Assembly: GCA_003151475.1 (NCBI GenBank)
Contig: PLXQ01000077.1
Coordinates: 1-64,000, forward strand
Length of the DNA stretch: 64,000 bases
Direction: 5' to 3'
Source of the DNA: Acidimicrobiaceae bacterium
GTDB taxonomy: Bacteria; Actinomycetota; Acidimicrobiia; Acidimicrobiales; UBA8190
A program made the translations under genes and the position numbers. This document shows, piece by piece, positions 50,370 to 53,519 of the stretch. A model generated the notes under the pieces. It was not told where the DNA came from. It saw only the letters and a program-made list of their open reading frames with translations, and searched no databases. The first letter of the stretch is position 1, and each line of letters begins with the position of its first letter.

Positions 50370-51269
50370 TCAGTGGCGTGGTCGACGGGCCACGAGGAGC
50401 CGCGAGGATGCCTGGACGCGCAGGACGCTGTCGTGCTCGAAAGGCCGCAGGAGCTCCGTGGCCCGGGCGAGGAACTGGACCCGAACGTGCTGATCACACT
50501 TTGGCCACACCTGAGAGAGCGGTGGGAGTGACGGGTAGACGCGTACCCACTCCGCCACCCGGGGGAGAGCGGCGAGCATGCGGACGCTCTGGCACGAGAC
50601 GTCAACGAGACCGGCCTGTCCGGCCAATTGCTCGAGGTCGTCTGTGCTATGCCAGGCGAACGCCTCGAGAAGGGCCTCGACCACACCGGAGTCGTCGAGG
50701 CCGGCCTTGACGGTGGCGTCGAGTTGGGCGGCGAAAGCCGGGTTCTCCTCGATCGGTCCCCAGGTGGTGACGCCCATACGGCCACCGGGGGCGAGCACTC
50801 GGCGCATCTCCTCCAAAATCAGGACCGGATCGGTGAAGCGATGCAATGCGTGCTGACAGGCGACGACATCGAAGGTGCCGTCGGCGAAGGGCAGTCCACC
50901 GTCGTCCCATTGTTGCCAGTCGACGGTGCTGGTGAGGTCGATGCGCCGCGCCGTGGCTACAGCGATGGCGGACGGGTCGATGCCTACCACCAGACCGGAA
51001 GGTCCCACTACGTGGGCCGAGAGCCGGGCGAAGACACCGGTGCCACAGGCCACATCGAGCACACGCGCGCCGCGGACGACGACCAGGGCATCGAGAGCGC
51101 GCTCGGCGAAGCGACGACCGAAAGCAGGATCGAAGTGCTGGGCATACGAGGTCGCTGACTCTTCGTCGTCATACGCGGCGCGAAATCCTCCACGTACGCC
51201 GACACCGGAGCCTGCGCTTCGTGCACCCACGGATCGGGGGAACACGTCGCCGGTGCCGCTCATAGCCAC
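50370..51269 (-). CDS. Class I SAM-dependent methyltransferase
   Basis: A 299-aa methyltransferase: VRGARVLDVACGTGVFARLS (motif I), GLVVGIDPSAIAVATA (acidic ribose contact), LPFADGTFDVVACQHALHRF, LEEMRRVLAPGGRMGVTTWG (post-motif). The start at GTG 51269 (VAMSGTGD) is proposed because it is eight bases after TATCCT; ATG 51263 in the same frame is the conventional choice. Acceptor unknown; the sequence resembles UbiE/small-molecule methyltransferases. Confidence 0.88.
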   Translation of the reverse strand: MAMSGTGDVFPRSVGARSAGSGVGVRGGFRAAYDDEESATSYAQHFDPAFGRRFAERALDALVVVRGARVLDVACGTGVFARLSAHVVGPSGLVVGIDPSAIAVATARRIDLTSTVDWQQWDDGGLPFADGTFDVVACQHALHRFTDPVLILEEMRRVLAPGGRMGVTTWGPIEENPAFAAQLDATVKAGLDDSGVVEALLEAFAWHSTDDLEQLAGQAGLVDVSCQSVRMLAALPRVAEWVRVYPSLPPLSQVWPKCDQHVRVQFLARATELLRPFEHDSVLRVQASSRLLVARRPRH

Positions 51270-51277
51270 CGAAGGGC

Positions 51278-51283
51278 AGGATA
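51278..51283 (-). promoter_or_regulatory. Leaderless -10 box of the methyltransferase gene
   Basis: TATCCT (minus), eight bases before GTG 51269. Confidence 0.4.
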
Positions 51284-51379
51284 ATGCACACATTCCACGA
51301 TGTGGCGGACTCTGACGCATACGTGTGCTCTCAGCGCAACACGACGAGGCCATACGACTGAATCGCTCTTCGTTGCCCG

Positions 51380-52444
51380 TCAGTCGTGCGTGCCCGCCGC
51401 CAGTGCGGCGCCGAAGTGCGCCACGAGATCGGGGAGCTGTGCGTGCGCGTTGAGACCACTCGTCGACGGCATGACGTAAACGGGGCGACCACCGAATCGC
51501 TCACGCTGCAGACCGGCGCCGGCACGGCGATCGACGGCGGCGCGCCATCCCGACAGACCCACCATGCAGACAACGGACGGTTGCAGCCAGCGCGCCAGGC
51601 GTTTCACGCGTCCCATGCCCGACTCGTACTCGCCGGCCGTGAGCTCGTTCGCTCCCACCGTGGCCCGCTTCACGGCATCGGTCATCCCGACGCCGTGCGC
51701 CTCGAGTGCGTGATACGGGTCACGGGGCCGCGTCACCAGCCCCGCGGCGATGGCGGCGGGCCAGAAGCGATTACCGGGCCGGGCGAATCCAATACCGGCG
51801 TCGGCCGAATACACACTCGGGTTCAGTCCCACCATCAAGATGCGCATTGCCGGTCCGACGATGTCGGCCAAGGTGCGGGCGCGCACGGCGGATACCCGCA
51901 CGACGTCACCGGCGACCCGGAGATCGGTCACGTCGAAGCCGGCGCCGACGACGACATCGCGCAACATCTCCGGCGGCCATGAGGCGAAGAACCGGTCGCC
52001 GATGTCGTCATCGGGAAGCGCCCGGCCCTCGTAGTCGCCGGCCAGCACCTGGATGTCCACGGGGGCATCGACCACGAGGATCCTGTGCAACTCGGCCAAG
52101 GCCAGGGGAAGCCGGTGGCGCGGCACGTGCAGGTAGCTCATGTTGGCCCAACCGCCGTGAAGGCACTGACGAGCGAAGGGCAGAGCCTCGAGATCGCCCT
52201 GCACAAGCGGAGCGTCGGTCTGGCGCCGACAGAGGGCGAGCATGGTCCAGGACGCGTCGAGTCCGATCATGGGCCGTCCGAGGTCGGCTGTGTACCGACC
52301 GGCACCGCAGCCCAGGTCGATCCGCAGCGTCGCCGGGGTCACCCTCCGGCCGAAGGCCTCGGCGTCGGCCCGTCGCACGGGCTGTCGGCACTCGGCCCAC
52401 CGTGCCCCCCGCTGGTCGTAGACGTCGATCGTGAGCTCGTCCAT
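51380..52444 (-). CDS. Methyltransferase - MUG/TDG-type DNA glycosylase fusion
   Basis: A 354-aa two-domain protein. Residues about 1-195 are a SAM methyltransferase: LRIDLGCGAGRYTADLG (motif I), GLDASWTMLALCR, QGDLEALPFARQCLHG, LAELHRILVVDAPVDIQVL. Residues about 197-354 match mismatch-specific uracil/thymine-DNA glycosylases: MRILMVGLNPSVYSADAGI with the catalytic Asn of GLNPS, GFARPGNRFWPAAIAAGLV (the FAxPGNRFW motif) and VMPSTSGLNAHAQLPDL (the NPSG-like loop, here STSG). One domain may recognise or repair a base, the other methylate something; whether they act together is unknown. Start ATG 52444 is the beginning of the homology. It lies 22 nt after the DUF gene upstream, so probably in its operon. 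Confidence 0.88.
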   Translation of the reverse strand: MDELTIDVYDQRGARWAECRQPVRRADAEAFGRRVTPATLRIDLGCGAGRYTADLGRPMIGLDASWTMLALCRRQTDAPLVQGDLEALPFARQCLHGGWANMSYLHVPRHRLPLALAELHRILVVDAPVDIQVLAGDYEGRALPDDDIGDRFFASWPPEMLRDVVVGAGFDVTDLRVAGDVVRVSAVRARTLADIVGPAMRILMVGLNPSVYSADAGIGFARPGNRFWPAAIAAGLVTRPRDPYHALEAHGVGMTDAVKRATVGANELTAGEYESGMGRVKRLARWLQPSVVCMVGLSGWRAAVDRRAGAGLQRERFGGRPVYVMPSTSGLNAHAQLPDLVAHFGAALAAGTHD

Positions 52445-52466: not shown

Positions 52467-53468
52467 TTACTCGGCGACCCCCACGGGCTGGCCGTCGATG
52501 ATCTGATCGAGGTACTCCGACAGCCCGTAGCCGACACGGCCGTCATCGAGGGTCCACTCGGTGAGTCCCTCGGAGATGCGTGTCACCATGTCATCGCCCT
52601 CGGGAGTCCGGCGCCGGTTCCGCAGGGGAATGAGACGCAGGACGCGGCCCTTCACCGACCACGTCCGGTCATCGGTTACGAGCTCGGCCTCGAGAGCCCG
52701 GTGATAGCGGTCGTCGCCTTCCCATGTCGTAGAAATGCGGAAGTCGGTGCACAAGCGCAGCGCCTCTCCATCCCAGACGAAACCACCGCGGATTCCCTGG
52801 CTGTCGCGACGCGCTATCCGAGATCCCATGAATCCGAACCCGGGGCCGAAGTTCGCCGTCAACCACCGGTAGTACCACGGGGCCTGCCAGTAGCGCGGGC
52901 CCCAGCTGTGATCGCGGAGCCCGAAGCCGTGGATGTCCCATGTCTCTTCGCCCACCTGGACCGTACCGGCCGCCTCCACCAGTTGCTCGTAGTGGCCCCG
53001 GGCGAACTCCTCTCCGGGCCGTTCGGCTGGTTGATCGGGCTCACCGCCGAACATGGCCGAGCGTCCGCTGTAGGTCAACTGCACGGCGCATTCGACATGC
53101 GGGTTGGCTGTGAAGGCGGCCCGTGGGTCGGCCATCTCGAGAGGGTTGTCGAGGAGCACGACACGACCTTCGTAGCTGACCCGCAACTCGGTGAACGGCT
53201 CGACGACGTCGAAGCGCATGCCGGCGGCGTCGAAAGCCGAGTTGTCCGTCACCTGCGGACGCCGGAACATGAAGGCCACGCGCCCGTCGGGAAGGTAGAG
53301 ACAGGCCGTCATCTCGCCCGTGCCTTCGTTGGCTCGGTTGCCGAGCCGGAAGAAGCCCCCGAGCCGGCTGTCGGGGTCGTAGGCGTTGAAGTACATGGAC
53401 TCGTTGAAGTTGGGTTCCGGGCCCAACTCGTGCATGTACTCGTCGGCGGGTTCGAGGCGCAGGGCCAT
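52467..53468 (-). CDS. Conserved protein (DUF7064/7065-like)
   Basis: A 333-aa protein with strongly conserved-looking motifs: NESMYFNAYDPDSRLGGFFR, LGNRANEGTGEMTACLYLPD, WDIHGFGLRDHSWGPRYWQ and YYRWLTANFGPGFGFMGSR. This resembles the DUF7064/7065 family, which has a lipocalin-like fold related to carotenoid 1,2-hydratase (CrtC) as I recall; ligands are likely hydrophobic (sterol, terpenoid). ATG 53468 sits five bases after a TAGGGT -10 box. Divergent from the kinase-like gene at 53527 by only 58 nt. Confidence 0.75.
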   Translation of the reverse strand: MALRLEPADEYMHELGPEPNFNESMYFNAYDPDSRLGGFFRLGNRANEGTGEMTACLYLPDGRVAFMFRRPQVTDNSAFDAAGMRFDVVEPFTELRVSYEGRVVLLDNPLEMADPRAAFTANPHVECAVQLTYSGRSAMFGGEPDQPAERPGEEFARGHYEQLVEAAGTVQVGEETWDIHGFGLRDHSWGPRYWQAPWYYRWLTANFGPGFGFMGSRIARRDSQGIRGGFVWDGEALRLCTDFRISTTWEGDDRYHRALEAELVTDDRTWSVKGRVLRLIPLRNRRRTPEGDDMVTRISEGLTEWTLDDGRVGYGLSEYLDQIIDGQPVGVAE

Positions 53469-53473
53469 GGTCC

Positions 53474-53519
53474 ACCCTATCGAGACGCCCTCCGGCCCAC
53501 CGGGGGCCCGACGTAACCT
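53474..53519. promoter_or_regulatory. Divergent leaderless promoters of the DUF and APH-kinase genes
   Basis: Minus-strand TAGGGT (53474-53479) is five bases before ATG 53468; plus-strand TAACCT (53514-53519) is seven bases before ATG 53527. Neither gene has a Shine-Dalgarno site. The two -35 regions must overlap in the 34 bases between the boxes, so the two promoters probably compete or share a regulator. Confidence 0.5.

Follow-up and report, generated by a model that had tools for sequence, protein, structure and literature searches.

The gene analysed here, which lies in a 64,000-nucleotide window (the whole stretch of DNA under study), encodes a class I SAM methyltransferase fused to a MUG/TDG-type DNA glycosylase. 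This is a genuine fusion, of long standing in one class of actinobacteria, and it keeps the signature residues of both active sites. The half of the methyltransferase that holds the SAM site has undergone several parallel deletions in place, leaving behind a remnant homologous to its other half. On balance, we favour a mismatch glycosylase core, a methyltransferase half that caps it, and a SAM-binding half that is separately dispensable.

The 354-residue frame is single and stop-free, and its ATG is backed by an N-terminus (MD..T...Y) that is conserved in alignments of its relatives. An earlier note on this DNA had described one frame holding a SAM methyltransferase and then a MUG/TDG-type glycosylase, and this description holds: both Pfam domains in the translation score above their cut-offs, in that order and separated by a linker of a few residues at most, and the motifs it had listed are all present (IDLGCGAG at residues 42–49, GLNPS at 206–210, FARPGNRFW, and MPSTSG at 325–330). 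The fusion was modelled with AlphaFold2 from 45 aligned relatives, and the models were judged by mean pLDDT and pTM (95.5 and 0.93, respectively, at full length). In the predicted structure the methyltransferase is docked rigidly onto the glycosylase with hardly any linker.

Table 1. Features of the fusion gene, with positions in the window.
Feature	Position	Strand	Basis or conservation
Whole fusion gene, 354 aa	51380..52444	-	ATG at 52444, stop at 51380-51382; translation
Complete class I SAM methyltransferase, residues 1-190	51875..52444	-	Pfam, AlphaFold2, structural match to 3e23
SAM-binding half, residues ~1-104, absent from half forms	52133..52444	-	Alignments; profile-profile boundary at residue 95-105
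Second half of methyltransferase, residues ~105-190, retained in half forms; probable structural cap	51875..52132	-	hhalign, half-form model
MUG/TDG-type glycosylase, residues 191-354	51383..51874	-	Pfam; match to 1mug
Motif I DLGCGAG, residues 43-49	52298..52318	-	D43, G45, G47, G49 each 52/52
D63, probable SAM-ribose acidic residue	52256..52258	-	52/52 full forms
GLNPS with catalytic Asn N208	51815..51829	-	52/52 full, 23/23 half, 3/3 solo
NRFW; N225 aligns with TDG Asn157	51761..51772	-	Alignment to MUG/TDG
MPSTSG, the glycosylase's second motif, with a TDG-like Ser327	51455..51472	-	Translation, comparison with TDG

The N-terminal domain belongs to the class I SAM methyltransferases both by Pfam (Methyltransf_25, 41.4 bits against a cut-off of 27; Methyltransf_11, 39.5 against 21.2; best stretch 43–123) and by its full fold, the predicted residues 1–190 matching SAM-bound RPA2492 (3e23) with Z 25.0 and rmsd 1.8 over 182 aligned positions. 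Motif I and the acidic residue after strand 2 occur together in all 52 full forms; we take the role of the latter, D63, from class I methyltransferases in general. P89, H106 and P113 are likewise invariant across the 52, and Y9, R151 and F153 are each kept in 51 and W156 in 49; Y9, H106, R151, F153 and W156 are positions that presumably line the substrate pocket. The SAM half evolves with a dN/dS of about 0.11–0.25 in seven of seven close pairs, and is therefore under purifying selection where it is present. Ordinary DNA methyltransferases are marked by a DPPY-like motif IV or by PCQ. On reading the sequence neither mark of the N6-A, N4-C and C5 enzymes was found, the stretch after strand 4 being WANMSYLHVP, and so by motif it does not count among the ordinary DNA methyltransferases.

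The C-terminal domain matches the UDG family (PF03167, 47.2 bits against a cut-off of 24.3; best stretch 198–337), with E. coli Mug and human TDG nearest by sequence (E. coli MUG aligns to residues 193–341, E 7e-19). The predicted residues 191–353 have the MUG/TDG fold, matching 1mug with Z 24.7 and rmsd 1.8 over 161 positions and TDG with Z about 23. Both G-[IL]-N-P with its Asn, whose catalytic role is described in PMC12001322 and PMC3488261, and N-R-F-W are present; N225 is kept in 52 of 52 full and 23 of 23 half forms, and P209, W228, P326, S329 and G330 are each found in all 52 full forms. The earlier note had asked whether both active sites are conserved in homologues, and the signature residues of the SAM site and of the glycosylase are indeed conserved in 52 of 52. 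It had also remarked that the glycosylase loop reads STSG where NPSG is usual. STSG is there, but "usual" needs correcting: position 327 is Ser in 29 and Asn in 23 of the 52 full forms (and Asn in 39 of 39 ordinary stand-alone MUGs), and because TDG has a Ser, Ser271, at the position that corresponds to Asn in E. coli Mug (PMC3488261), STSG is the TDG-like state and no broken site. The protein falls under the NCBIfam Mug equivalog cut-offs (NF007570, 79.8 of 144 bits; TIGR00584, 54.5 of 402.6 bits). Two further UDG-superfamily genes occur in the host genome and neither is matched with the fusion protein as query, so that, on sequence comparison, the fusion is probably the genome's only MUG-type gene.

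The survey covered a sample of 296 genomes from the same class, 396 taken from the phylum, and genome_contigs in one scan. Matches at E ≤ 1e-3 were found in 154 of the 296 class genomes, many of them to a methyltransferase alone or to an ordinary MUG, and the strong matches were sorted by hand with the aid of fetched loci. The fusion family is carried by 68 of the 296: 39 have the whole fusion, each on one contig and together spanning 18 families, 4 are probably contig-split, 19 have a half form (18 usable, in 12 families, and one frame-broken), 5 are undecided at contig edges, and 1 has a solo form. Counting other loci, there are 52 distinct full-length relatives with this domain order, a search for which the earlier note had proposed. 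An ordinary stand-alone MUG is found in 54 other genomes of the 296, with no overlap with the 68 among up to seven scored candidates per genome. Outside the class, the matches listed for the 396 phylum genomes cover roughly the glycosylase part alone, with the exception of a methyltransferase-only match in G413, and the genome_contigs scan, which reaches close relatives only, gave 32 loci that are mostly named Acidimicrobiia, Acidimicrobiales or Acidimicrobiaceae, which makes Acidimicrobiia the probable origin of the window. Duplicates were removed before counting (L040 = L024, L084 = L054, L091 = L070, L092 = L077), as were loci cut by contig ends (L029, L064, L090) and three frame-broken copies of the fusion or half form (L053, L062, L128), which reflect sequencing error or decay. 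The genes on two contigs labelled Acidobacteriota or Acidobacteria (L036, L055) group within the acidimicrobial clade, and these are probably mis-binned MAG contigs.

In the half forms the glycosylase is kept together with methyltransferase residues ~105–190, and residues ~1–104, the whole SAM site, are gone. A tree of the glycosylase domain unites fused and half forms in one clade against the 39 ordinary MUGs (SH-aLRT 100), and the same clade is recovered with 10 outgroup rows (100/100). Within it, the half forms are scattered among the full forms, requiring 10 changes for 23 rows, at least three of them forced by well supported branches. The number is 13 with L069, L072 and L074, which had earlier been called half forms and were dropped (fewer than 320 bases precede the glycosylase, and the N-terminal half may lie off the contig). 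A single origin of the half form is rejected (the constraint costs dlnL 126.7, p-AU 0.0001) and appears in 0% of 200 bootstrap trees, the bootstrap values being not fully settled. Three solo forms (L049, L051, L054) have lost the whole methyltransferase and still lie within the fusion clade, by two changes on the tree.

The chromosomal place of the genes gives evidence of repeated loss that does not depend on this tree. Four families (f9, f35, f36 and f43) each contain both full and half forms, in different genera, and homologous neighbour genes stand beside the full and half genes on both sides in f9, f35, f36 and L085 of f43, and upstream only for L087. Measured from the upstream neighbour to the glycosylase, and against full forms selected for each group, the half forms are shorter by 260–286 (f9), 367–400 (f35), 185–330 (f36) and 350–435 bases (f43), and two solo forms by 501–574 bases, close to the 561–570 bases of the whole methyltransferase domain; these differences are approximate because sequences on the full side were truncated 600 bases ahead of the glycosylase. 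One half form (L052) has the remnant and no shortening (differences 3 and 46), and for L050 the differences of 1046–1070 are not readable as one deletion. Nothing of the SAM half turned up in a six-frame search around 23 half-type or solo genes: the strongest match there had E 0.46, in a row that was later dropped, against E 5e-34 or better for five full-form controls. The half forms have thus lost core elements of a domain and kept a homologous rest, and with the three contig-edge rows dropped this is not a gene-model artefact.

The remnant was aligned from 21 half forms, two of the 23 (L086 and L126) being omitted because their start is not clear. In hhalign it matches residues 95–187 of the full alignment with a probability of 98.5%, E 1.4e-14 and a score of 79, whereas 30 column shuffles did not exceed 15.4. 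By this profile comparison it is the second half of the methyltransferase, minus a further stretch of about 19 residues near 135–153. The half form is predicted to fold as one compact unit (pLDDT 93.8, pTM 0.91), in which a short first strand, helix, strand, helix and two strands, equivalent to half a Rossmann-like sheet, precede the glycosylase. Fold searches with this model gave only UDG-type matches among the 50 rows listed, and for that reason speak neither for nor against a methyltransferase origin of the remnant. In these rows UdgX starts at model residue 10–12 or 41 and most TDG matches at 22–29 (end points only), a hint from the model that the retained helix may sit where other UDGs have N-terminal elements.

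We suggest that the half beside the glycosylase acts mainly as an N-terminal cap or support and is usually kept as such, and a structural role of this kind is probable. The main rival is that the remnant has no role, decaying slowly after loss of the SAM half and persisting only through its contiguity with the glycosylase. Selection on the remnant is relaxed (dN/dS about 0.26–0.76 in eight pairs, against 0.07–0.28 for their glycosylases), so part of its retention may indeed be slow decay; low-complexity inserts interrupt some remnants (L086, L077), and the solo forms, having no methyltransferase part at all, imply that a cap is not strictly needed. However, the same piece, with its motifs LP..LA..H..LPVG and GAGF, is retained in the alignment across separate losses, dN/dS is below 1 in eight of the eight pairs, and the predicted fold is compact together with the glycosylase. 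On this evidence we consider decay of a roleless piece rather unlikely as the full account of the remnant.

In the explanation that we prefer, with a capping half, the C-terminal domain would be a mismatch glycosylase of the MUG/TDG family that stands in for the ordinary MUG and, to judge from its intact active site, probably excises U or T opposite G. The N-terminal domain would be a complete small SAM methyltransferase docked rigidly upon it, whose outer half (~1–104), repeatedly deleted in place, may provide a separate and dispensable methylation activity. Since the SAM half is intact and under selection where present, yet repeatedly lost, such an activity would be useful but separable. The glycosylase thus looks like the core function, and the SAM half like a separately dispensable one.

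The earlier note had raised a functional link between base excision and methylation in a single chain. The fusion and its two intact active sites are supported. Against an obligatory coupling speaks the loss of the whole SAM half, in at least four families, from orthologous genes that stand in the same place and keep the glycosylase signature residues. A coupled enzyme would methylate the substrate of the glycosylase, its product (the abasic site or freed base) or flanking DNA, and the half-form lineages would have dropped the second step. The fusion is old, rigid and conserved with both sites intact, as coupling would have it; against this, the SAM half is lost repeatedly while the glycosylase stays, and motif IV of the DNA methyltransferases is absent. 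Furthermore, the C-terminus that follows strand 7 of a class I fold points away from the SAM pocket, so that the active sites of the two domains may well look in different directions. Gene context offers coupling some encouragement: DNA-acting genes lie near distant, plasmid-borne stand-alone relatives of the methyltransferase at 8 of 14 loci (three of which represent one orthologous context), compared with 1–2 of 10 for controls, although this difference is small and plasmid-biased. The contexts include DUF4007 with a cysteine desulfurase, HNH nucleases, a non-specific nuclease, a phosphorothioation-associated gene and fusion to a PLD/ResIII helicase, and they give a lead, and only that, towards DNA-linked methylation. 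Taken together, we regard coupling as distinctly unlikely, and less likely again a scheme in which a G:T or G:U site, once opened by the glycosylase, is modified by the attached methyltransferase at a base, at the abasic product or at a nucleotide close by. Such a link between mismatch excision and methylation would later have been abandoned in some lineages through loss of the SAM half.

Among the stand-alone relatives, those on alphaproteobacterial plasmids (L116, L138, L139) sit beside genes for a class V aminotransferase (cysteine desulfurase-like) and DUF4007, in what looks like a DNA-modification or defence island. On a plasmid of Polaromonas sp. W11N (L143:4995-6752), a related methyltransferase shares one chain with a PLD-like domain and a ResIII helicase.

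It is very improbable that the SAM domain serves as a sensor or regulator of the glycosylase and not as a catalyst: the rigid docking in the model and the invariant SAM-binding residues would suit such a role, but the positions that typically form the substrate pocket are kept as well. An artefact in which a frameshift or assembly error joined two neighbouring genes, or domains that in homologues are always separate genes, either of which the earlier note had named as fatal to its reading, can be dismissed, since 52 distinct full-length relatives exist, from the 18 sampled families and named MAGs.

Immediately downstream of the fusion gene, on the same strand, lies a second, stand-alone class I methyltransferase (50370-51353, minus; Methyltransf_11, E 1e-19), and just upstream is a gene for a DUF7064/DUF7065 protein (52467-53516, minus; Pfam), which is common to the near relatives L033, L035 and L036. 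Another group of loci has SDR, PAP2-phosphatase-like and FAD-oxidoreductase-like neighbours, the last names having been given by reading the sequences and not by search. As a clue to function the neighbourhood yielded only neighbours common to related loci, and nothing on methylation. A phage origin and a plasmid origin were both rejected, since 0 of 7 phage records and 0 of 108 plasmid records with a match cover 80% of the query in one place. In a viral scan with an alignment-derived pattern, 43 stretches matched and none was confirmed. The fusion protein hit 0 PADLOC families at E 0.1, and an anti-phage defence role was rejected.

No description of the fusion was found in the open-access literature searched. 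Its parts are of known kinds; the searched literature describes neither the order of the domains, nor how old that order is in one class, nor the recurrent loss in place of the catalytic half. Related lineages carry whole, halved and methyltransferase-free versions at one and the same chromosomal position. Nature has here run an experiment on multidomain enzymes, and comparison of the three forms can show what a mismatch glycosylase gains from the methyltransferase and for what reason a broken Rossmann-like domain is kept by half. If the methylation concerns DNA or a repair product, bacteria would be seen to join excision repair to methylation in a novel way.

Each part has close counterparts. 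The methyltransferase resembles the small class I enzymes RPA2492 (3e23) and Cg3271 (3h2b) over the whole domain (Z 25.0 and 23.3), with SAM motifs in common, although these stand alone and are only 20–25% identical to it in structural alignments. With E. coli Mug and human TDG (family 2 of the UDG superfamily) the glycosylase shares its fold, catalytic Asn, NRFW and second motif, but differs in carrying an N-terminal methyltransferase, in having Leu for Ile in GLNP and in scoring under the equivalog cut-offs, and many members of the fusion family have a TDG-like Ser/Thr in the second motif. The stand-alone actinobacterial MUGs (39 rows, Actinomycetota including Blastococcus) belong to the same glycosylase family and take the fusion's place in other genomes of the class; in contrast to it they form a separate clade, have no methyltransferase and carry Asn at positions 327 and 256. 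Finally, the half forms are a case of domain atrophy, in which core elements of a domain are lost and the rest is packed on a neighbour. In Prakash and Bateman (2015, PMC4432964) such atrophy is reported to be rare and mostly to spare functional sites, and by that account it is unusual for a catalytic half-domain to be lost in parallel: here it is the active-site half that goes, and it does so repeatedly, in orthologous genes.
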